Below are positions 5,117-39,209 of a stretch of DNA of 64,000 nt, piece by piece. Position 1 is the stretch's first letter. Each line of letters begins with the position of its first letter. The DNA comes from Myxococcales bacterium. GTDB taxonomy: Bacteria > Myxococcota > Myxococcia > Myxococcales > Myxococcaceae. The notes below the pieces were generated by a model. The model saw only the letters and a list, made by a program, of their open reading frames with translations, ran no database searches and was not told the origin of the DNA. The stretch lies in contig JADLDB010000094.1 in the NCBI GenBank assembly GCA_020846875.1, forward strand, positions 62,001 through 126,000. Reading direction: 5' to 3'. Made by a program: the position numbers and the translations under genes.

Positions 5117-5502
5117 CGGCTGACCTCTGGCGGCGCGCCCTGCTGGACGACCACCTGGGCGAAGGCCTCCACGATGGGCGCGAAGGCGCGCTCCGCTTCC
5201 CGCGCCGCCTCTGCCTGGCCCACGGCCGCCGCGCGGAGGAGCCGGCCCGAGACGAACAGGTACACGTCCTTCAACGCCTGGCCGAGCTCCGGCGCGCGCG
5301 TCACGTCGAGGGTAGCGGACAGCTCGCTGACGATTTCCCCTGCCCTGGTGAGCGGCACCACCGCGTCCTGCTTCTTTCCCTCCTCCAGGGCCGCCGCTCC
5401 GGCGCGGATGTGCTTGAGCGCGGCTTCGAAGAGCAGCACCATCAACCGCTCCTTCGAGGCGGTCTCGTGCTGGGTGCGGGCGTAGGCGCGGGCGGCGTTC
5501 AC
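5113..5502 (-). CDS. fliS: Flagellin export chaperone FliS
   Basis: FliS binds the C-terminal tail of flagellin in the cytosol and keeps it from polymerising before export. This 129-residue protein shows the family pattern: an N-terminal AARAYARTQHETASKERL-like segment, then LMVLLFEAALKHIRAG and a helical bundle. Its GTG start overlaps the fliD stop codon (GTGA), with GGAGG just upstream. The order fliD-fliS-fliT-like is typical. Confidence 0.93.
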   Translation of the reverse strand: MNAARAYARTQHETASKERLMVLLFEAALKHIRAGAAALEEGKKQDAVVPLTRAGEIVSELSATLDVTRAPELGQALKDVYLFVSGRLLRAAAVGQAEAAREAERAFAPIVEAFAQVVVQQGAPPEVSR

Positions 5503-6860
5503 GACTCACTCCCTCCGATCTTCGGGAACGGGTTGTTGGTCAGGTAGCTGCCGATGGACTTGAATCCGCTCACCACCGTCTCCATTGCGGTGAACTGGGC
5601 GATCAGGTTGCGCCGGTAGCCGTCCAGCCGGGCGTTCAACTGCTCCAGCGTCGAGTCCATCCGCTTGATGCTCTGGTTGAGCCCATCCTTGCGGGCGCTG
5701 AGGAGGCCCGAGGACGGCGCGGTGTATTGGTCGACCAGGCCGTCCACCACGTCGGACAGCCCGGCGGTGGCCTTGGTGAACAGCGCGTCTACCGAGGTGC
5801 TCTCGCGGGTGATGGCGGCGCTCAGCTTGCTGTCGTCGATGGACAGCGTGCCGTCGCGGTTGGTCTGCAAGCCCAGGTCAGCCAGGGCGCGTACGGTGCC
5901 CAGCCCGGGCACCGTCGTCGACACGACCTTCTGCAGCGCAGATTGCATGTTGCGCACCACTGAGTCGCCGGCGAGCGTCCTCGCGCGATCGACGCCGGGC
6001 CCCAGGTTGAGCTGCCGCTGCACCGCGGACAGCACGTCGTTGTAGGCGGTGACGAAGGCCTGCAGGTTCTTCTTCGTGGCCTCGGTGTCATAGCCCAGCA
6101 CCACGTCCTCGGCGGGGCCGGTGCGCTTGAGCGACACCTTCGCGCCCGGCAGCACGTCGGACAGCTCGTTGCTCAGCCGCGTCATGGTGAGGCCGTCCAC
6201 CACCACCGTGGCGTTCGCCGCGGCCTGGGTGAGGGCGAGGCCCAGCGGCTGGCCCAGGCTGCCGGTGGGCGTCTCGGTGATGGACAGCGCGTCGCCCGGC
6301 CCACCCGTCAGCGGGTACCCGGTGTCGCGGTTGGTGAGCGACAGGTAGTCGTGGGTGCCGTCCGACAGCACCGCCGCGCTCACCGGTGCGCCCGACGCGT
6401 TGAGCGCCGTGGCCACCTCGGACAGCGTCATCCCATCGGTGAGGGTGAGGGAATAGCTCTGCCCCATCACCGAGAGGTCCAGCGTGCCGCCGCGCACCAC
6501 GTCTACACCGGGCGTGAAGGCCGCGCTGCGCGCCTTCGCCGCCTGCGCCAGGGCCTGCACCTCCACCGAGTAGCGGCCGGCCGTCCCGCCGGTGGTGGGG
6601 GTGATGCCGAAGCTCGCGGGACTGGAGCCGGTGGACAGCCGCAGCACCCCGTCGCGCTTCAAGTTCTTCGCGGCCGTCTGCAGCGCCGAGAGCCGGTTCG
6701 CCAGGTCGCCCAACAGGCTCACCTGCAGCTTCAGCGCGTCCTGCCGCGCGGTCATCAGGTCGATGGGCCGCTTCTCCAGCGACACCAGCTGTTCGATGAT
6801 CGCGTTGGAGTCGAGGCCCGAGGCGAGGCCACCGGCACGGAAGCGAGCGTCGATGGTCAT
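5499..6860 (-). CDS. fliD: Flagellar filament cap protein FliD (HAP2)
   Basis: FliD forms the cap at the filament tip and guides flagellin folding after export. The 453-residue protein has the N-terminal GGLASGLDSNAIIEQLV segment of the family, a central variable part, and a C-terminal helical half (RMDSTLEQLNARLDGYRRNL, then QFTAMETVVSGF). There is no signal peptide, as expected for a type III export substrate. GGGAGG lies seven bases before the ATG. The stop codon overlaps the fliS start. The gap to fliC upstream is 90 bases. Confidence 0.95.
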   Translation of the reverse strand: MTIDARFRAGGLASGLDSNAIIEQLVSLEKRPIDLMTARQDALKLQVSLLGDLANRLSALQTAAKNLKRDGVLRLSTGSSPASFGITPTTGGTAGRYSVEVQALAQAAKARSAAFTPGVDVVRGGTLDLSVMGQSYSLTLTDGMTLSEVATALNASGAPVSAAVLSDGTHDYLSLTNRDTGYPLTGGPGDALSITETPTGSLGQPLGLALTQAAANATVVVDGLTMTRLSNELSDVLPGAKVSLKRTGPAEDVVLGYDTEATKKNLQAFVTAYNDVLSAVQRQLNLGPGVDRARTLAGDSVVRNMQSALQKVVSTTVPGLGTVRALADLGLQTNRDGTLSIDDSKLSAAITRESTSVDALFTKATAGLSDVVDGLVDQYTAPSSGLLSARKDGLNQSIKRMDSTLEQLNARLDGYRRNLIAQFTAMETVVSGFKSIGSYLTNNPFPKIGGSES

Positions 6861-6950
6861 CGCGGTGCCTCCCGTCCTTTCTCACTTCTTCACGGAGAGA
6901 GGCCCGGGCGTGTCTGGTGCCCGGGCCTCGCCCCCTGCTTCATCGGCTCA

Positions 6951-7778
6951 TCACCCGAGCAGCTTGAGGGCGATCTGCGGCATCTGGTTGGCCTGCGCGA
7001 GCACCGACACGCCGGCCTGCATCAGCACCTGCGAGCGGGCCATGCGGCTGGTCTCCTCGGCCACGTCCACGTCGCGGATCCGGCTGTTGGCGGCCGACAG
7101 GGACTCGCTGGAGGCCTGGATGGACGCCACCGCGGAGTTGAAGCGGTTGCCCGCGGCGCCGAGGGTGGCGCGCGCTGTCGACAGCGTCTGCAGGGCGGTG
7201 TCGATGACGCCCAGCGCCGCCTGCGCGCCCGCCTTGGTGGACAGGTCGAGCGTGTCCACGCCAAGCGTCGCGGTGGTGGCGTCGACGGTGGTGACGGTGA
7301 TGCGGTCGTTGGCCGCCACGTTCCGAATGCCGACCTGGAAGTCGAGCGCGACCGCGCTGCCGTCCAGCAGCATCTGCCCGTTGAACTCGGTGGCCTGGGC
7401 GACCCGCTCGACCTCGGCCACCTGCTCATCGACCTCGCTCTGGATGTAGCCGCGCTCCGTGGCGCCGATGCCGTCGGACGCCGACTGCATGGCCAGCTCG
7501 CGCAGGCGGGCGAGGATGTTGGACTGCTCGTTCATCGCCGCCTCGGCCGTCTGGATGAGCGAGATGCCGTCGTTGGCGTTGCGGACGCCCTGGTTGAAGC
7601 TGCGAATCTGCGCCTCCAGGTTGACGCTGATGCCGAGCCCCGCGGCGTCGTCGCCGGCCTTGGTGATGCGGTAGCCGCTCGACAGGCGGGACAGGGACGA
7701 GTCCAGCTGCCCCTGGGTCTGGTACAGGTTGCGTTGAGCGTTCAGCGACGAGACGTTGGTGCGAATCGACATTGCCAT
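6951..7778 (-). CDS. fliC: Flagellin
   Basis: This is the filament subunit, 275 residues long. It is close to the minimal form: the conserved N-terminal D0/D1 part (MSIRTNVSSLNAQRNL near the start, and SGYRITKAGDDAAGL), a very short middle, and the C-terminal D1/D0 part ending QMPQIALKLLG. The middle keeps only a small loop around LLDGS to DTLDLS, so the surface-exposed D2/D3 domains are absent. The ATG at 7778 is chosen because GGAG precedes it and the family starts here; a second ATG two codons on is possible. A sigma-28-type promoter lies directly upstream, so this gene can be made late and alone even though it sits in a long run. Confidence 0.97.
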   Translation of the reverse strand: MAMSIRTNVSSLNAQRNLYQTQGQLDSSLSRLSSGYRITKAGDDAAGLGISVNLEAQIRSFNQGVRNANDGISLIQTAEAAMNEQSNILARLRELAMQSASDGIGATERGYIQSEVDEQVAEVERVAQATEFNGQMLLDGSAVALDFQVGIRNVAANDRITVTTVDATTATLGVDTLDLSTKAGAQAALGVIDTALQTLSTARATLGAAGNRFNSAVASIQASSESLSAANSRIRDVDVAEETSRMARSQVLMQAGVSVLAQANQMPQIALKLLG

Positions 7779-7831
7779 GGTGGTTGGTTCTCCTGTGGTG
7801 AGGGCAACGTGAAGTCGTCGCCTCCGCTGAA

Positions 7832-7859
7832 TGTTCGGCACCGCGGCCGCAACTCTTTA
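7832..7859 (-). promoter_or_regulatory. Sigma-28 (FliA) promoter of fliC
   Basis: Read on the minus strand, TAAAG (7859-7855) is followed by 15 bases and then GCCGAACA (7839-7832). This fits the FliA consensus of TAAA, about 15-16 bases, then GCCGATAA. The -35 element shares its bases with the TAA stop codon of the upstream 756-residue gene. The fliC start codon is about 54 bases further on. FliA and its inhibitor FlgM are both encoded in this window. Confidence 0.8.
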
Positions 7860-10127
7860 GGTGCGCGTGAGGGCCTCGATGTGGGTGTGGAGCCGGCGCA
7901 GCGCCAGCGAGCGGGCGTAGAGGCGCAACAGGCCCGACGCCGGCTCGTCTTCCGTCAGCACGTTGACGGCGGCAAAGCAGACGCGGCCGCGCACCCCCAG
8001 CGGCCACCGGGAGAGGACGGCGAGGGCCGCCGCGTGCCACGACAACAGGGAAGGCCCGCCGTAGCGCTCGCCGTCCAACTCCAGCTCGAGCCCGAAGGGC
8101 AGCCGTCCCTGGAGCGTCACCACCACGTTGGGCGCAGGGGTGGACGGCAGGGTGAGGGCCGCGCGCGTCAGGCCGTTGGTGGCGCGTACCGAGAGCGCTG
8201 CCTGGGGCTCGGCGCGCAAGAGGGCCTGCGCCTCGCTCAAGTACGCCTCGGCGTGCAGGAGCGGCACGCTCTCGCGCAGCACGTAGCCGGCTTCGTCGGT
8301 GGTGAGCAGCCGGGCCGTCTTCTCGTCGTCGCTCCAGGCCAGGCACTGCAGCTGCGGGCTGGAGCGCACCTCGCGGCCCTGGGTGGCGTCGACGCCGAAG
8401 TCCGGCGCTTCCGGGTCGAAAGCGCAGCGGACCGGCCGGCGCGCGAAGGTCGGTTCGGAGTGCTGCCTGAAGCCGTCCGGCGAGACCACCACCACGTCTC
8501 CGCCCACCTCCACCGCCAGCGGGCGCGCGGGCACTTGGGCGCGGACGCGCCGCGCGAGGCGGGTGAGGCGCGCTTCCAGCGACTGGGCCTCGGCGCCGCG
8601 GGCGACGAAGTCCAGTTGGGTGCCGGCGAGGGACTCCTTGAGGACGAGCCGCGGCACCTCCACCGCGCGCACCTCGCGCGCCGACGGCCGCCTCTGCGGC
8701 TTGAGGGACACCAGCAGGCCACCCGAGAGCGCCAGCCGTCGTCCCTCGCCACGGTTGAGCGGATCATACGGAGGCCCGGGGACGTCCAGCGGTGTCACGT
8801 CCAGCACCAGGGTCCGCCGCGCTGCGGGGGCCAGGAGCCGCGGGGCCAGCTTCTTCCACTCGGCCGGCGCGGGCGTGGGCGCCACCGGGCGGCCCAGCAC
8901 GTGTCCCAGCAGCGCCAGCGCGCGGACCCAGGCCTGTGCCGGGTGGGCACCCTGGCCCAGCACGCCGCCGGAGGAGAGGCGCACCTCCACGCCCTTCGGC
9001 CCCAAGGTTTCGCGCAGCGGAGGCAGCTCTCCGCGGCGCCCAGCGCGGGTGAGTGCCTCGGCCAACGGCGGCATCAACAACCGCGGGAAGCCCGCGGCCA
9101 GCGCCGTCTGGGAGAGGGCCGTCCGCAGCGCGGCGCCGTCCTCCAACGGCAGGCGGCGGACCGCGCGGCTCAATTCGAGCGCCAGGGCGCGCCCCACCGC
9201 GAGGACGCCCGGGGGGCTGGGCTCGTCGACGGACCTGGGCGCGCCCAGGTGCGCGGCCAGCGCGCGGGCGGTGCGCCGCACGGAGTTGTTTGGGGCGACC
9301 AGGGCGCAAGCGGAGAAGGGCAGGGCAGGCGTCTTCGAGCGCAGCGCGGCGCGAGCGGCCATGAAGAGGCCTGGCTCGGCGAAGTGCGACAGAGGCTGCG
9401 CCACCGCGCGGGCCAGGTCGGCCACCTCTTCCAGCTCCGCGGCTTCGCCCGACGGCCAGGCGTCGAGGGTGAGGTAGGCCATCACCCGCGCGGCCTCGGT
9501 GGGGGCCGTGCGCCAGAGCTCGGCGGCCAGAGGATCGCCGGTGGGGCCCCCGGAGGCGAAGAAGGCGTCGGGCAGGCGTCCAGCGAGGAGCGCGCCGCCG
9601 GAGAGGAGGCGGCTCTTCGAGGCCGCGTCGTAGGGCTGGGCGGAGGGGCCGGTGGCGGTGATGCCGACGCGGAGGAGGCGCCGGCGCAGGAGTGTCTCTA
9701 CCGCGCGGGCCCGCTGGGCGATGCGCTGCTCGTCGGCGGGCGTGAGGTTGGGCGCGGGCACCACGTGTACGTCGAGGCCCGCGTCGTGGGGCGTGAGGAG
9801 CAGCGCGGCGACGAGGCGGCGGCCCCGCTGGATGCCGGTGGGCGGTGGGAGGTCGAAGTCGCGGGCCAGCTTCATCCACCGCATCGAGGCTCGGACGTCT
9901 TCCACCCCCGGGGCGTCACTCTTGAGGCCCGCCCACGGGAAGGTGGCGTGGAAGAGGGCGGGCAGCAGAACCACCGCGGCCCCGGTCGTGGGGTCGAGGC
10001 GCTTCTTGATGCCGCGCAGCCGCGCCCGGAAGAGGGTGAGGAGCCGCCGGGTGCGCACGTCCGCCACGCCGCGGCCGCGCTGCTCGGGCCGGCGGACGGG
10101 GGCGTCGAGAGGGACGGCCGCTGGCAT
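7857..10127 (-). CDS. Protein of unknown function between flgL and fliC
   Basis: This 756-residue protein is not recognised. It has no signal peptide and no clear membrane segment. It is rich in Ala, Arg and Leu and shows no Walker, glycosyltransferase or methyltransferase motif that can be named with confidence. The ATG at 10127 has AAAGGA a few bases before it. It lies 15 bases after flgL, and its stop codon overlaps the fliC promoter, so it is inside the late flagellar run. Genes in this slot in other bacteria often modify flagellin or act in its export or regulation, but this is only context. Codon use and base composition look like those of its neighbours. Confidence 0.75.
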   Translation of the reverse strand: MPAAVPLDAPVRRPEQRGRGVADVRTRRLLTLFRARLRGIKKRLDPTTGAAVVLLPALFHATFPWAGLKSDAPGVEDVRASMRWMKLARDFDLPPPTGIQRGRRLVAALLLTPHDAGLDVHVVPAPNLTPADEQRIAQRARAVETLLRRRLLRVGITATGPSAQPYDAASKSRLLSGGALLAGRLPDAFFASGGPTGDPLAAELWRTAPTEAARVMAYLTLDAWPSGEAAELEEVADLARAVAQPLSHFAEPGLFMAARAALRSKTPALPFSACALVAPNNSVRRTARALAAHLGAPRSVDEPSPPGVLAVGRALALELSRAVRRLPLEDGAALRTALSQTALAAGFPRLLMPPLAEALTRAGRRGELPPLRETLGPKGVEVRLSSGGVLGQGAHPAQAWVRALALLGHVLGRPVAPTPAPAEWKKLAPRLLAPAARRTLVLDVTPLDVPGPPYDPLNRGEGRRLALSGGLLVSLKPQRRPSAREVRAVEVPRLVLKESLAGTQLDFVARGAEAQSLEARLTRLARRVRAQVPARPLAVEVGGDVVVVSPDGFRQHSEPTFARRPVRCAFDPEAPDFGVDATQGREVRSSPQLQCLAWSDDEKTARLLTTDEAGYVLRESVPLLHAEAYLSEAQALLRAEPQAALSVRATNGLTRAALTLPSTPAPNVVVTLQGRLPFGLELELDGERYGGPSLLSWHAAALAVLSRWPLGVRGRVCFAAVNVLTEDEPASGLLRLYARSLALRRLHTHIEALTRT

Positions 10128-10142
10128 CGGGCGTCCTTTCGC

Positions 10143-11024
10143 CTACAGCTTGTCCAGCAGCGAGGGTTGGAAGGTCCTGGCCGCCGCGGTGAGGGCCGCG
10201 TCCAGCGCGCGCTCGGCCTGGGCCAGGCGAGACGCGGCGTCGATGATGTCGGCGTCGGCGAGGTGAGAGAGGCGGACCCTGGCGTCGGTGCTCGCGGCGA
10301 CGGCGGCGGCACCGGCGACCTCCAGCACGTTGAGGTGGCTACCTGCTTCACTGCGCTTACGCGCCACCTGGGCGATGCCCGAGTCGAGCGCGTCGAGGGT
10401 GCCCTGTACGCCGGCCACGTTGTTGGTGGACAAGGCGGTGGCCAGGGACTGCAGGGTGGCCAGCACGTCCACGCCGCCCCCCACGCCCTTGAGCGCCACG
10501 TCCGCGCGCACCGAGGCAGGCACGGTGACGCCTGGCGCCACCTCCACTTCGCGCACCCCGGTGTCGCCCAGGTAGTTGCCCGCCGCGTCGAAGGGCGGGG
10601 CGTCGTCCTGGAAGCCGCCGAAGACGTAGCGGTGGCCCACCTTGCGATTGAGCTGCCCCAGGACTGTTTCGAAGAGGCCGTTCACCTCCTGGGCGGCGGC
10701 GGCCCGCTCGTTGGCGCTGTAGGTGGCGTTGGACAGTTGCACCGCCAGCTCGCGCGCGCGGGAGAGGGCGGTGGACACGCCGTCCAGCGCCACCTCGGCG
10801 TGGGCGAGCTCATCGGAGGCGGTACCCAGCGTCTTCGCGATGGCCTGGTCGCGGCCTGCCTGGGCGATGGTGCGGGCCATCAGGCTGGCGGCGGCGGGGT
10901 CGTCCTCCGGGTGCCGTACCCGCACCCCGGTGGCGGCTTCGCGGCTGGCGGCCTCGAAGCGCTCCCGGGCGCTGGCGGCGCGCCGGGCGGCGTTCTCGAA
11001 GAGGAGGCGATCGGTGACGCGCAT
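10143..11024 (-). CDS. flgL: Hook-filament junction protein FlgL (HAP3)
   Basis: FlgL joins the hook to the filament. The 293-residue protein is related to flagellin at both ends: it starts MRVTDRLLFENAARRAASA with the following PEDDPAAASLM stretch, and it has the typical VNGLFETVLGQLNRKVGHRYVFGG segment in the middle (read in two parts around residues 118-140). The C-terminal helix ends near FQPSLLDKL. It follows flgK by seven bases. Confidence 0.93.
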   Translation of the reverse strand: MRVTDRLLFENAARRAASARERFEAASREAATGVRVRHPEDDPAAASLMARTIAQAGRDQAIAKTLGTASDELAHAEVALDGVSTALSRARELAVQLSNATYSANERAAAAQEVNGLFETVLGQLNRKVGHRYVFGGFQDDAPPFDAAGNYLGDTGVREVEVAPGVTVPASVRADVALKGVGGGVDVLATLQSLATALSTNNVAGVQGTLDALDSGIAQVARKRSEAGSHLNVLEVAGAAAVAASTDARVRLSHLADADIIDAASRLAQAERALDAALTAAARTFQPSLLDKL

Positions 11025-11031
11025 GGGGGCC

Positions 11032-12438
11032 TCAGCGGAGCTTCAGCAGGGTGTCAAGCATCTCGTCGGTGGTCTGGATGACTTTCAGCACTGCCTCGTA
11101 GGCGCGCTGGGAGGTGGTGAGGGCGATCATCTCCTCGTCGATGGAGACGCCCGACGCGGACTCGCGCAACGCCGAGAGCTGATCGAGGACCGCCTCGTCA
11201 CGGGCGCCGGCCGTGCGCGCCGCGTCCACGGCGCTCCCCCAGGTGGCGATGGCCGCGGCGATGCCGTCGAAGACGTCGAGGCCGTTGGAAAGGGCGGCGC
11301 CCTCCGTCTGGATGATGGCGAAGAGGTTCGACCCGTCTCCGGGCAGGGAGGCGGCGTTGGTGGCGGCGCCCAGCCGGCGCGGATCGGCCAGGAGGCCGGG
11401 GTCCACCGCGAGGCCCCGGGCGGCCCCCGTCGCGGCGGCAGGCGCAGAGAAGAAGTCCCGGCCTCCTACGCCGTCCAGGCCCACGCCACTCTGGTGCGCG
11501 GAGTTGAGGGCGTTGGCGAAGTCGAAGGCCAGGGTGTCGAGCGAGGCCTCCGCGGTAGCCAGCGCCCCGTCGCGCGCGTCCAGGGCGCCGCCCATCGAGC
11601 CGCCCAGGGCGCCAGCGCCCAGCTGCGCCGCCGCGCTCGAGCCCGCCGGGGTGAGGAAGACGGCCAGGTGTCCGCCGTTGGCGAGGTCGGGCTGGGTGGA
11701 GAGGGTGGCGGAGAGGTCGGCGTTCACCAGGGCGCCGCCCGTGGGCAGCTGGAGGTTCGCGTTGCCGTCGTCGTCAGGGATGACGGACGCGCCGGTGAGC
11801 TGCACCAGCTCGTCCTGCACGCGCAGGCGGGCGTCGAGCAGGTCGTTCGGGACCGCGCCGGAGGCCTGCTCGATCCGCACCTGCTTGTTCAGCGCGGCGA
11901 GGCTCTGCGCGAGGTCGTTGACGCGCGCCACGTTTGCCTGCAGCTGCGTGTCCAGCCCGTCGCGTGCCCCGTCGACGTTCTGCGCGGCGCGGTTGAAGGC
12001 CAGCGCTACGGTGCGCCCCTGGGCCAGCACTGCCTGGCGGCTGCCTACGTCGCCCGGAGCCTGGGTGAGCTGCCGCAGCGAGCCGAAGAAGGCGTCGAGC
12101 GCGTTGGTGAGGCCGGCGCCGCCGTCCGGGTCGAGCGCGGTGAGGCCCTCCATCGCCTGGGCCTTCGCGCCCGAGTACGCGGACGAGGCGAGGGCCTGGG
12201 GCAGCTGCCGCTCGAGGAACTGGTCGCGCGCCTGGCTGACGCCCCCCAGCAGCGCACCGCGCCCGATGAAGGCGCCACCGAGGCGATCGGCCGGCAGGGT
12301 GGCCTCCAGCTGGGCGCGCTGCCGGGAGAAGCCCGAGGTGTTGGAGTTGGCCAGGTTGTGGCTGGCGGTCGCGGACGCCGCGCGGTGTGCCGAGAGGCTC
12401 GAGCTGGACCAGGACAGCAGGGCGAAGAGGTCGGCCAT
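11032..12438 (-). CDS. flgK: Hook-filament junction protein FlgK (HAP1)
   Basis: FlgK is the first junction protein on the hook. The 468-residue protein has the family N-terminal motif ATASHNLANSNTSGFSRQR, a long middle with the RTVALAFNRAAQNVDGARDG-like segment, and the C-terminal SIDEEMIALTTSQRAYEAV motif shared with rod and hook proteins. The ATG at 12438 is used because the conserved motif starts about 24 residues later; the frame stays open upstream through flgN in another reading frame. The gene lies five bases after flgN. Confidence 0.95.
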   Translation of the reverse strand: MADLFALLSWSSSSLSAHRAASATASHNLANSNTSGFSRQRAQLEATLPADRLGGAFIGRGALLGGVSQARDQFLERQLPQALASSAYSGAKAQAMEGLTALDPDGGAGLTNALDAFFGSLRQLTQAPGDVGSRQAVLAQGRTVALAFNRAAQNVDGARDGLDTQLQANVARVNDLAQSLAALNKQVRIEQASGAVPNDLLDARLRVQDELVQLTGASVIPDDDGNANLQLPTGGALVNADLSATLSTQPDLANGGHLAVFLTPAGSSAAAQLGAGALGGSMGGALDARDGALATAEASLDTLAFDFANALNSAHQSGVGLDGVGGRDFFSAPAAATGAARGLAVDPGLLADPRRLGAATNAASLPGDGSNLFAIIQTEGAALSNGLDVFDGIAAAIATWGSAVDAARTAGARDEAVLDQLSALRESASGVSIDEEMIALTTSQRAYEAVLKVIQTTDEMLDTLLKLR

Positions 12439-20147: not shown

Positions 20148-21596
20148 ATGGCAGACGGGACGGCGAAGGCGGCGGGGAAGGCGCTGGTGTTTGGCGACAC
20201 CTCGCTGATGCAGGGCGTGGTGCGGGCCGCGCGGCGGATCGCCCCGGCGGAGGCGACGGTGCTGATCACCGGAGAGACGGGGACGGGGAAGGAAGTGATG
20301 GCCCGCTACATCCATGATCATTCCTCGCGGGCGACCAAGGCCTTCATGCCGATGAACTGCGGGGCCATTCCCGAGGCGCTGCTGGAGAGCGAGCTGTTCG
20401 GCCACGTCCGCGGTGCTTTCACCGGCGCGGTGGCGGGGCGCAAGGGACGGCTGGCGATGGCCGACGGCGGCACCCTCTTCCTCGACGAGGTGGGCGAGCT
20501 GCCGCTGGCGCTGCAGGTGAAGCTATTGCGGGTGCTGCAAGAGCGCGTGTACGAGCCGGTGGGCGGCAACGAGTCCGTGGCCGCCAACTTTCGGTTGATC
20601 GCCGCCACCAACCGAAACCTGGAGGCGGAGGTGGAGGCGGGGCGCTTCCGGCGCGACCTCTACTACCGGCTGATGGTGTGCCCGCTGGAGCTTCCGGCGC
20701 TGCGCGAGCGCGCCGGCGACGTGACGCGGCTCTTCCTGCACTTCTGGCGGGAGCGCGGGGAGACGCGGCAGCTCGAGCCGGGCGTGCTGGACGTGCTGGG
20801 CGCGTACGGCTGGCCGGGCAACGTGCGCGAGCTGGAAAACCTGGTGGAGCGCGTGTCGGTGCTGACCGAAGGCCCTTCAGTCCGCGTAGAGGACATTCCC
20901 GCGCCGGTGCGGCCGGGCACCCCTCGGCCCACCGCGCCGGGCCCGTGGGCGTCGCCGGGTGAAGTCGTCCCTCTTCCGGAGGTGCCGCCTTCGGCCCATG
21001 TCCCCGCCAGCGCACCGCGCGCCGTGCCTTCCGCGCCGGGCCCGTGGGCGTCGCCGGGTGAAGTCGCCCCTCTTCAGGAGGTGCCGCCTTCGGCCCATGT
21101 CCCCGCCAGCGCACCGCGCGCCGTGCCTTCCGCGCCGGGCCCGTGGGCGTCGCCGGGTGAAGTCGCCCCTCTTCCGGTGGTGCCGCCTTCGGCTCCGGTC
21201 CCCGCCAGCGCGCCCCGCGCCCCGCCTTCCGCGCCGGCGGCGCCGGCCGAGCTCCCCGCGCAGGCGCCGGAGGCCGTGCGGGCGCCGCCCACTCCCCCAC
21301 CGCCCACCGTCCTCCCGCAGGCCGTCGCACCGGAAGCCATGGGCCCCGCGTCGGCAGATCCACCGTGGCCTGGCGCCGCGCGGCCAACGCCGCCGTCCTA
21401 CTTCCCCGTCGACCTCCCGTCACTGCTGCGCAGGCTGGAAGACGACTACATCGACGCCGCGCTGCAGCAGGCCGGGGGCAACAAGAAGGCCGCCGCAGAT
21501 CTCCTCGGCCTTCAGCGCACGACCCTGGTGGAGAAGCTGCGCCGTCGCATGCGCGAGGTGCCGCTGCCCACCCCGGCGCTGGCGTCGGGCGCTTGA
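20148..21596 (+). CDS. Sigma-54 activator without receiver domain, with tandem-repeat linker
   Basis: This 482-residue protein opens directly with the AAA+ domain: Walker A GETGTGK at 42-48, GAFTGA at 89-94, Walker B TLFLDEVGE at 109-117. There is no receiver or other N-terminal sensor domain. Between about residues 263 and 361 lies a Pro/Ala-rich linker made of three 33-residue repeats, and a Fis-type helix-turn-helix follows at about 425-470 (ALQQAGGNKKAAADLLGLQR). The ATG at 20148 has GGAGG before it. It is divergent from the FleS-like kinase and lies upstream of the rod/MS-ring run, so it is a good candidate for the flagellar class activator (FlrC or FleR role). The lack of a receiver means control must come from elsewhere. 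Confidence 0.88.
   Translation: MADGTAKAAGKALVFGDTSLMQGVVRAARRIAPAEATVLITGETGTGKEVMARYIHDHSSRATKAFMPMNCGAIPEALLESELFGHVRGAFTGAVAGRKGRLAMADGGTLFLDEVGELPLALQVKLLRVLQERVYEPVGGNESVAANFRLIAATNRNLEAEVEAGRFRRDLYYRLMVCPLELPALRERAGDVTRLFLHFWRERGETRQLEPGVLDVLGAYGWPGNVRELENLVERVSVLTEGPSVRVEDIPAPVRPGTPRPTAPGPWASPGEVVPLPEVPPSAHVPASAPRAVPSAPGPWASPGEVAPLQEVPPSAHVPASAPRAVPSAPGPWASPGEVAPLPVVPPSAPVPASAPRAPPSAPAAPAELPAQAPEAVRAPPTPPPPTVLPQAVAPEAMGPASADPPWPGAARPTPPSYFPVDLPSLLRRLEDDYIDAALQQAGGNKKAAADLLGLQRTTLVEKLRRRMREVPLPTPALASGA
20934..21230 (+). repeat. Three tandem copies of a 99-bp in-frame repeat
   Basis: Copies begin at 20934, 21033 and 21132, each 99 bases long, so each adds exactly 33 residues. Copies one and two differ at only a few bases (for example near the CCTCTTCCGGAGG / CCTCTTCAGGAGG point); the third has drifted in its second half. 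The repeat encodes a Pro-Ala-rich linker between the AAA+ and DNA-binding domains of the activator. Confidence 0.95.
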
Positions 21597-33594: not shown

Positions 33595-35145
33595 CTACGT
33601 CGCCTGGGGTCGCGGCAGCACCCGCATCAAGCCCACGTACACCGCGGCCGACAGCCCGAAGCCGAGGAACCACGCGTACACGTAGATGGCGTCGAAGAAG
33701 TTCTTCTCGCCCGCGAGGACGCCGGCGCTCTTCAAGAAGCCGGGCACGTTGGGCAGCACGCCCGCTACCAGCGCTACCACCGCCGCGAGGTTGATGCCCC
33801 GGTAGCGCCCGTGGACCCGGTAGAGGTCCGGCACGTCCAGCTCCCGCTTCCGCAACAGCCAGTAGTCCGCCACCATGATCCCCGCGATGGGGCCCAGCAG
33901 CGCCGAGTAGCCGATCAGCCAGTTGAAGATGTACGTGTCCGCGCTGGCCAGGAAGCGCCACGGCATCATCAGAATGCCCAGCACGCCGGTGATGAGGCCG
34001 CCCGTCTTGAAGCTGATCAGGCGCGGCGCGAGGTTGGCGAAGTCGTTGGCGGGGCTCACCACGTTGGCGGCGATGTTCACCGAGATGGTGGCGATGCCCA
34101 CGCCCAACAGGGCGATGACCGCCACCAGCAGGCGCGTGCCCGGGCTGGCGATGAGCGGCGCGTCCAGGCCGGCGGGCGCGGTGGGCGAGGTGAGCTGCGA
34201 GAGGATGAACACCGGATCCCACAACTGCTTCACGTCGACCCCCTTCAGGATGGCGTGCGACGCGCTGGTGATCACCACCCCCATCGCCGAGAAGGCGATC
34301 ATCGTGGTGGGCAGGCCCAGCGTCTGGCCCAGCATCTGCTCCCGCTGGCCTCTGCCGAAGCGGGTGAAGTCGGGGATGTTGAGCGACAGGGTGGCCCAGA
34401 AGCCCACCATGCCGGTGAGCGACGGGACGAACACCGCCCAGAACTCGCCCACGGTGGAGAACTTCGACGGCTGCGCCAGCATGGTGCCCACGCCGCCCGC
34501 GCGCCCCACCGCCCACACCAGCAGCACGCCAGCCATCACCAGCACCAGCGGCGCGGCCCAGTTCTCGAACACCCGCACCGCGTTCATCCCGCGCAGGATG
34601 ATGAGGATGTTCAGCGCCCAGAAGACCAGGAAGGTGAGCGCCGACGGCAAGGAGAGGCCGAGGAAGGTGGCGCCGCCGCCGAGGTGCGCGTAGCCGGGCC
34701 ACAGCGCCTCCACGAAGGTCTTCACCGCCTCGCCGCCGATGAAGGTCTGAATGCCGAACCACCCGCACGCGACGATGGCCCGCAGCACCGCGGGGATGTT
34801 GGCCCCCACCGTGCCGAAGCTGGAGCGCGCCAGCACCGGAAAGGGAATGCCGTACTTCGTCCCCGGGTGTGCGTTGAGGAGGATCGGCACCAGGACGATG
34901 ACGTTTCCCAGGCCGATGGTGAGCAGCGCCTGCCACCAGTTCATCCCCACCGCCACCAGGCCGCCGGCCATCATGTACGTGGGAATGCAGTGCGCCATGG
35001 AGATCCACAGCGCCGCGAAGTTGTACGTCGTCCAGTTGCGCCGGCCCTTCGGCACCGGGGCCAGGTCGGCGTTGAAGAGGGGGCTGTCGCCGATGTCGGG
35101 AGGCAGCTCCGCCAGGGCCTCTTTCGCGAGCGCGGGGTCGTGCAT
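33595..35145 (-). CDS. NCS1-family nucleobase/hydantoin transporter
   Basis: This 516-residue protein has about twelve membrane helices and the NCS1 hallmarks: NADLAPVPKGRRNWTTYNFA near the start, then WISMAHCIPTYMMAGGLVAV, and later SLNIPDFTRFGRGQREQMLG. The family imports purines, pyrimidines, hydantoins, allantoin or thiamine in symport with a cation; the substrate cannot be told from sequence alone. It is next to a class V aminotransferase on the same strand, which hints at ureide or purine nitrogen. It opens the non-flagellar insert and converges on motA. Confidence 0.92.
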   Translation of the reverse strand: MHDPALAKEALAELPPDIGDSPLFNADLAPVPKGRRNWTTYNFAALWISMAHCIPTYMMAGGLVAVGMNWWQALLTIGLGNVIVLVPILLNAHPGTKYGIPFPVLARSSFGTVGANIPAVLRAIVACGWFGIQTFIGGEAVKTFVEALWPGYAHLGGGATFLGLSLPSALTFLVFWALNILIILRGMNAVRVFENWAAPLVLVMAGVLLVWAVGRAGGVGTMLAQPSKFSTVGEFWAVFVPSLTGMVGFWATLSLNIPDFTRFGRGQREQMLGQTLGLPTTMIAFSAMGVVITSASHAILKGVDVKQLWDPVFILSQLTSPTAPAGLDAPLIASPGTRLLVAVIALLGVGIATISVNIAANVVSPANDFANLAPRLISFKTGGLITGVLGILMMPWRFLASADTYIFNWLIGYSALLGPIAGIMVADYWLLRKRELDVPDLYRVHGRYRGINLAAVVALVAGVLPNVPGFLKSAGVLAGEKNFFDAIYVYAWFLGFGLSAAVYVGLMRVLPRPQAT

Positions 35146-37133: not shown

Positions 37134-39209
37134 ATGGCGCCCCTCACCTGTCCCCACTGCCGCAGCGTCGCCGAGGTCGCCCTCGAGCCCGGTGTCCGCC
37201 GGCGCACCTGCGACGCCTGCCGCCGCGAGTTCTGGGTGAGCTGGGCGGCGCCGACGGTGAGCAAGCTGGCGCCCGCGGGTGGGGTCGAGGAGACGGGGAG
37301 AACGCTGAGCGATCTGGGCATGGGCATCGAGACGGTGCCGACGGTGGTGGGGCAGCGCGCACTGTCGGCCCGGCCGCCGGCGCACCTCCCCATCGAGGAG
37401 GAGGTCACCGACAGGCCGCTGTTGGCGCGCGGGCCTCGCGGACAGGTGCCCGAAGGTCAGCGCACCACGCGCGCGGCGTCGGACAAGCAGCACCCGGTGA
37501 AGCGGCCCTCCGAGAGGCGGCTGGCTCCGTCCACACCCGAGCCCGCGCAGCCGGGGTTGCAGTTGGGCGGCCTGCGGTTGCTGGCGCGCATCGGCGGCGG
37601 GGGCATGGGCACGGTGTGGCTGGCCCGGCAGATGTCCCTCGATCGCAACGTGGCGGTGAAGGTGCTCAAGCCCGCCCTGGGGGACGATCCCGCCTTCGTC
37701 ATCCAGTTCAACCGCGAGGCCATGGCCGCGGCGCAGTTGGTGCACCACAACATCGCGCAGATCTACGACATCGGCTTCGACCGCGATCTCCACTACTTCT
37801 CCATGGAGTACGTGGACGGCGAGCCCCTGTCGTCGCTGGTGAAGCGGGAAGGCCGCCTCGATCCAGAGGTCGCCGCCGGCTACGTGCTGCAGGCCGCGCG
37901 CGGGCTCAAGTTCGCGCACGACCGGGAGCTGATCCACCGGGACGTCAAGCCCGAGAACCTGCTGCTCAACCGCGACGGCATCATCAAGGTGGCGGACCTG
38001 GGGCTGGTGAAGCGCGTGGAGCGCCGCGAGGAGAAGGACAAGCCCAGCAGCACCCTCACCGATCTCGACTTCGTGTCCGGCGACGTGGTGATGGGCACGC
38101 CGGCGTACATGGCGCCCGAGCAGGTGGTGGACTCGAAGAAGGTGGACGCGCGCGCCGACATCTACTCGCTGGGCTGCACGCTGTACGAGCTGCTCACCGG
38201 CCGCGCTCCCTTCGAAGGTGAGACGACCGGCCAGGTGCTGGCCCAGCACGTCGGCGAGCCGCCCGTGCCGCCGGATCAACGCAACAAGCGTGTCCCGCCG
38301 GCGCTGGCCGCCATCACCCTGCAGATGATGGCCAAGAAGCCCGACCAGCGCTTCCCCGACATGGGGGCGGCGATCGCCGCGCTGGAAAGCTTCCTCGGGG
38401 TGGAGGCGGGGGTGGCCTTTTCGCCCCGCGAAGAGCACGCCGCGCTGCTGGAGAAGAGCGTGGACGCCTTCCTCCGCTCGCCCTGGGCCTTCCGGCAGCG
38501 GCTGGCGCGCTTCGCCTTCCTGGCGCTCTCGCTGGCGGTGGTGGGCGGCGCGCTGGCCCTGGGCTTCGCCGCCTTCGCGCCGTGGGCGGCCCTCTTCATC
38601 GTCACCAGCGCGCTCACCTCGGCGCTCATCAACGGGGTGGTGGGGCGCTCGCCGCTGGTGCTGCGGCTGCGGCACCTGGCGCTGGGCGCGCCCCTGTGGA
38701 CGTGGGCGCTGTGCTTCCTTCTGCTGGGGCTGCTCGCGGGGACGTTGGGCTGGCTGGGGCACCTGGGGGCCCTGCTGCAGAACCTGGCGCTGGCGGTGGC
38801 GGTGGGGCTGGTGTCGGTGCTGGCGCTCGATCGCCGGGTGCTGCGCGAGCGCCGCCCGCAGGTGGCTGAGGTGGAAGAGATGCTCAAGGGGATGCGCCTG
38901 CGCGGCCTCGAGGAGCAGACGCTGCGACAGTTCGTCTGCCGTTACAGCGGCGAGCGCTGGGAGGCCTTCTACGAGGCCCTCTTCGGCTACGACGCCAAGC
39001 TGCAGGCCCGGGCCCGCTGGGGCCGCGACGAGAAGGGCGAGCCGCGCCGGCGGTCCGGGGCGTGGAGGGATCCGCTCATCCGCTTCATCGACGGACGGCT
39101 GGAGAAGCGGCGCCAGCGCCGCGAGGCCCGGCGGCTGGCTCAAGCGGAGCAGGCGCCCAGCCCGCCGCCCCCCGCGCAGAAGCGGCCGGTGCGCGCGCGG
39201 CCGACGTGA
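37134..39209 (+). CDS. Membrane-bound Ser/Thr protein kinase with zinc ribbon
   Basis: This 691-residue protein begins with a zinc-ribbon pattern, C6-x2-C9 and C26-x2-C29. The kinase domain spans about residues 145-410: glycine loop GGGGMG near 154, catalytic K176 in VAVKVL, HRD at 268-270, and DLG (288-290) in place of the usual DFG. APE is present as YMAPEQ. A membrane region of about four helices lies near residues 455-570 and a basic cytosolic tail follows. DLG is common in bacterial kinases of this group and does not by itself imply loss of activity. The target is unknown. Confidence 0.92.
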   Translation: MAPLTCPHCRSVAEVALEPGVRRRTCDACRREFWVSWAAPTVSKLAPAGGVEETGRTLSDLGMGIETVPTVVGQRALSARPPAHLPIEEEVTDRPLLARGPRGQVPEGQRTTRAASDKQHPVKRPSERRLAPSTPEPAQPGLQLGGLRLLARIGGGGMGTVWLARQMSLDRNVAVKVLKPALGDDPAFVIQFNREAMAAAQLVHHNIAQIYDIGFDRDLHYFSMEYVDGEPLSSLVKREGRLDPEVAAGYVLQAARGLKFAHDRELIHRDVKPENLLLNRDGIIKVADLGLVKRVERREEKDKPSSTLTDLDFVSGDVVMGTPAYMAPEQVVDSKKVDARADIYSLGCTLYELLTGRAPFEGETTGQVLAQHVGEPPVPPDQRNKRVPPALAAITLQMMAKKPDQRFPDMGAAIAALESFLGVEAGVAFSPREEHAALLEKSVDAFLRSPWAFRQRLARFAFLALSLAVVGGALALGFAAFAPWAALFIVTSALTSALINGVVGRSPLVLRLRHLALGAPLWTWALCFLLLGLLAGTLGWLGHLGALLQNLALAVAVGLVSVLALDRRVLRERRPQVAEVEEMLKGMRLRGLEEQTLRQFVCRYSGERWEAFYEALFGYDAKLQARARWGRDEKGEPRRRSGAWRDPLIRFIDGRLEKRRQRREARRLAQAEQAPSPPPPAQKRPVRARPT

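Follow-up and report, generated by a model that had tools for sequence, protein, structure and literature searches.

Some flagellated Myxococcota encode a putative class I adenylate-cyclase-like pseudo-enzyme between flgL and fliC

Between flgL and fliC in the flagellar operon of a Myxococcales bacterium lies a gene, here called gene X. Sequence comparisons give good support for two statements about its product: it is homologous to class I adenylate cyclases, though far diverged, and it has lost their catalytic residues. With moderate confidence, we regard X as a pseudo-enzyme that shares descent with a class I cyclase of the flgL-fliC slot and has been retained for a regulatory, non-catalytic task at the filament stage. 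From the loss of the catalytic loop and the constant flagellar position, we infer a regulatory role: X probably helps to control filament production without cAMP.

The window, that is, the whole stretch of DNA analysed, is 64,000 nucleotides long. The features under study are listed in Table 1. The minus-strand gene order is flgI-flgJ-flgM-flgN-flgK-flgL-X-fliC-fliD-fliS. The original prediction of a 756-residue gene 15 bases after flgL and before fliC was confirmed: X occupies 10127-7857 on the minus strand, with an ATG at 10127 and a TAA at 7859-7857, and ends 84 bases upstream of the fliC start. A 1576-aa open frame on the plus strand (6351-11081) spans X and is antisense to fliC, X and flgL. 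It is an artefact of high G+C content, and the codon log-likelihood preferred X over it. No orthologue has an interrupted X reading frame, and unbroken copies stay close to full length across deep divergence; relative to the flgL stop, the X start was found at -3 to +27 bases in the relatives. By a crude Nei-Gojobori estimate, dN/dS between X and its nearest relative was 0.47, similar to that of fliD (0.48). X is a real gene. No strongly hydrophobic segment was found in the product, which is consistent with the cytosolic location that had been predicted.

Table 1. Gene X, its regions and its neighbours in the window
Feature	Position	Strand	Basis
Gene X, 756 aa, putative catalytically degenerate class I adenylate-cyclase homologue	7857..10127	minus	
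X aa 27-163, N-terminal region, probable homologue of the class I cyclase N-terminal domain (PF12633)	9639..10049	minus	hhalign
X aa 112-117, GSxGTxAQT loop about 8 residues shorter, SDxD replaced	9777..9794	minus	motif lost in 18 of 18 X, present in 12 of 12 class I cyclases
X aa 430-756, C-terminal region matched by the C-terminal end of the class I cyclases found in the flagellar slot of Myxococcota	7860..8840	minus	hhalign
flgK	11032..12438	minus	NCBIfam TIGR02492
flgL	10143..11024	minus	NCBIfam TIGR02550
fliC, 273-aa flagellin	6951..7772	minus	PF00669/PF00700
fliD	5499..6860	minus	PF07195/PF02465
sigma-28-like fliC promoter, overlapping the X stop codon	7832..7859	minus	sequence TAAAGAGTTGCGGCCGCGGTGCCGAACA

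As had been predicted, the TAA stop codon of X overlaps the -35 part of the fliC promoter. The promoter is a sigma-28-like element, TAAAG-N-TGCCGAACA, so that fliC can be transcribed separately. The TTAAg/TGCCGAA pair was kept at the same place in related genomes of the f1 family, and it also overlapped the TAA stop in loci L032, L044, L046 and L047. The Anaeromyxobacter-like loci L034-L036 and L040 did not show the pair. FliC is the sole flagellin of the genome, the other PF00669 match being FlgL, and the flagellin chaperone FliS is encoded in the same run, after fliD. The flagellin had been called very small; at 273 residues it is small, yet this size is ordinary for a flagellin without outer domains. 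Elsewhere in the window, a cytosine/purine/uracil/allantoin-type permease gene was observed within the flagellar region (33595-35145, minus strand), and a sigma-54 activator gene (20148-21596) was found to carry three near-identical 99-base tandem units at 20927-21237, in the linker before the HTH.

X had been described as matching no nameable family, and for searches with the single sequence this description held. X alone detected no Pfam or NCBIfam family at E<=1, gave nothing usable against PDB sequences, and found no relatives in the related-locus search, for which an alignment of 18 X sequences offered no sufficiently conserved pattern either. Among 16 orthologues, one matched PF12633 (Pfam, E 0.035) and one the class I adenylate cyclase model PRK09450 (E 0.057), both below threshold, and none matched PF01295. 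The description did not hold for profile comparison and for the occupant of the slot in relatives, both of which tie X to class I adenylate cyclases. The X profile retrieved the true class I cyclase of genome G001 at E 3e-5. When the profile of 18 X sequences was compared by hhalign with a profile of 12 class I cyclases, E. coli CyaA among them, the N-terminal region matched over 136 columns with Prob 93.7 and E 1.9e-7. A separate match was obtained between the C-terminal 327 residues of X and the C-terminus of Myxococcota cyclases (Prob 81, E 1.2e-5; E 1.5e-4 for the last ~73 columns alone). These E-values refer to single pairwise comparisons, not to database searches. As controls, profiles built for FlgK and FliD of these operons gave Prob 0.1 and 0.2, and column-shuffled decoys reached the real score in 0 of 100 cases for the N-terminal match and 0 of 150 for the C-terminal match. 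Where columns aligned, X and the cyclases were about 15-18% identical; for the middle third of X (aa ~190-430), no match to them was detected.

Profile-profile and structure-based searches had both been proposed with the original prediction; the former led to the class I cyclases as given above, and the latter, a Foldseek search of the X model against PDB, gave no significant match (mostly reverse transcriptases, TM 0.08). The AlphaFold2 model of X was confident, with a pLDDT of 86. By VIA-align, residues ~41-330 were nearest to minimal nucleotidyltransferases (MNT) and AadA with a weak Z of about 6, a value that noise can produce with models of this kind; the Pol-beta-like nucleotidyltransferase fold would lie in residues ~41-190. 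Sequence searches of PDB matched no solved class I cyclase. A model of the flagellar f11 cyclase predicted by AlphaFold2 from three sequences was poor (pLDDT 52); in its better-predicted C-terminal part, the order of strands and helices was the same as in X 467-561. The secondary-structure order hinted that the C-terminal alpha/beta domain might be duplicated in tandem, but sequence comparison gave no support for this.

The nucleotidyltransferase core motif GSxGTxAQT...SDxD was present in all 12 class I cyclases and in none of the 18 X sequences. Invariant positions of X carry Arg, Pro, Gly or Trp, and none of them carries Asp, Glu, Lys or His. Since the motif was lost in 18/18 orthologues, X would make no cAMP. 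Genome G000 encodes eleven class III cyclase domains, which could make cAMP. Compared with the E. coli CyaA type (PF12633 plus PF01295), X is alike in the N-terminal region (helix-helix-LLPxLxH...PG, followed by nucleotidyltransferase strands) and similar in overall length, and its C-terminal region matches the Myxococcota members of class I. In contrast to the CyaA type, it has neither the GSxGTxAQT loop nor SDxD, PF01295 is not recognisable, the middle is unmatched, and the gene is fixed inside a flagellar operon.

The phylum sample comprised 195 genomes and was searched with the X profile. X was detected in 27 of them, after removal of the true cyclase of G001 and a spurious short match in G030; weak matches in G156 and G030 were rejected, having no flagellar neighbours on those stretches. 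The original prediction had suggested a check of whether the gene always sits between flgL and fliC in related flagellated species, and its position proved constant: stand-alone X adjoins flgL upstream and/or fliC downstream in 27/27 genomes. Both neighbours were seen in 21 (two of these on split contigs), and in the other six the contig or fetched stretch ends before the second neighbour. G171, in which stand-alone X sits between flgL and fliC, has a further X-like domain in a fusion protein, where it follows a zinc-ribbon Ser/Thr kinase (L038:8718-12491, minus strand); the fusion gene is away from the flagellar genes. In the flagellar region of the window, the gene at 37134-39209 has a zinc-ribbon-like start followed by a kinase, similar to the G171 fusion.

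FliD marks 44 genomes of the sample as flagellated. X was missing from three flagellated Anaeromyxobacter-like genomes (G031, G032 and G037), in which flgL is directly followed by fliC. Thus, X is specific to flagellated genomes but dispensable for flagella. Genomes that we take to be A. dehalogenans were without X. In the parts of the A. dehalogenans 2CP-C genome paper considered here, flagellar genes are listed with no mention of an X-like gene (PMC2330069). No description of a gene like X came up in our literature searches.

True class I cyclases (PF12633) were detected in only three of the 195 genomes: G001, G002 and G007 (MAG contigs JALVPF010000223.1, QMME01000012.1 and JAAZNF010000012.1). 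In all three, the gene order is flgK-flgL-csrA-fliW-cyaA-fliC with the cyclase intact (loci L088, L089 and L090 = L109, L110 and L108). An intact cyaA between fliW and fliC suggests that cAMP may be made at the filament stage. X shares the slot and the N-terminal homology with these cyclases, and the C-terminal homology with the two longer ones, whereas the cyclases retain the catalytic motif and adjoin csrA-fliW, and the X genomes are without csrA or fliW. Since an intact cyclase and the most diverged member, X, have a rare genomic address in common, the slot gives independent support for descent. In the fetched flanks of class I cyclases of Spirochaetes, Nitrospinota, Nitrospirae, Syntrophus and Desulfovibrio, no flagellar neighbours were found.

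The contents of the slot vary among flagellated Myxococcota, from csrA-fliW, csrA-fliW-cyaA or X to histidine kinase/response regulator hybrids, and in some the slot is empty; the hybrids were observed in two genomes (L096:7706-9637 and L102:10028-11470, minus strand). The flagellin-control module CsrA-FliW combines translational control with a partner switch that binds flagellin. This module occupies the same slot in some other Myxococcota and is a plausible functional counterpart of X, although the two have no sequence relation. FliW (PF02623) and CsrA (PF02599) had no match in the whole genome G000 or in the other X genomes. Both were also absent from flagellated genomes without X, such as G031, G182 and G189; thus, a replacement of CsrA-FliW by X is not demonstrated.

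Several other explanations of X were weighed. The position between flgL and fliC, which in Pseudomonas holds glycosylation genes, is the one point that favours a flagellin glycosyltransferase, methyltransferase or export chaperone. Such a role, close to the flagellin-modifying or export-related function of the original prediction, now appears improbable: no family or signature of these kinds was found by Pfam and NCBIfam in the 16 orthologues, the X profile matches class I cyclases instead, the flagellin chaperone FliS is already present, and elsewhere the slot holds regulators or nothing. X could also still be a nucleotidyltransferase-fold enzyme whose active site is altered and which modifies flagellin or some other protein of the flagellum, perhaps by nucleotide transfer. 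The weakly nucleotidyltransferase-like N-terminal fold and the adjoining fliC would agree with this; the deleted GS loop, the absence of a kept Asp pair, and invariant residues that include none of the catalytic types Asp, Glu, Lys and His make it very unlikely.

The low identity and the unmatched middle would be expected if the likeness to cyclases were due to chance or composition and X were a protein of separate origin that came to occupy this slot. We give this explanation little credence, since two separate regions match collinearly, decoys and control families from the same genomes score far lower, and the matched family occupies the same slot in relatives. The lost catalytic residues would also fit a decaying, functionless remnant. 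This is extremely improbable for a gene that remains open and near full length over deep divergence, holds its start close to the flgL stop, and has a dN/dS like that of fliD. As for the loss of activity itself, X may have been inherited from an ancestor that was already inactive.

For X as a non-catalytic filament-stage regulator, the following course is proposed. A cyclase ancestor would have occupied the flgL-fliC slot of the Myxococcota flagellar operon. X would be translated after FlgL, just ahead of flagellin synthesis, and would serve as a cytosolic regulator or scaffold, without catalysis, when assembly switches from hook to filament. Most likely it would tune flagellin synthesis through protein-protein or ligand binding, in genomes without CsrA-FliW control. 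A bolder version, which we offer as a rather doubtful one, is that a cyclase recruited to a flagellin-control slot lost catalysis and, as CsrA-FliW was lost too, came to serve flagellated Myxococcia as their flagellin homeostat, reading the state of assembly instead of making cAMP.

Class I cyclases are familiar chiefly from Gammaproteobacteria, where they make cAMP in metabolism. An intact cyclase in a csrA-fliW-fliC operon of some Myxococcota, together with a probably dead relative that holds this slot in others, points to a so far overlooked level of regulation where hook assembly gives way to the filament. A gene annotated as hypothetical thereby gains a name and a test, and X becomes a candidate answer to how flagellin may be balanced in bacteria without CsrA-FliW.
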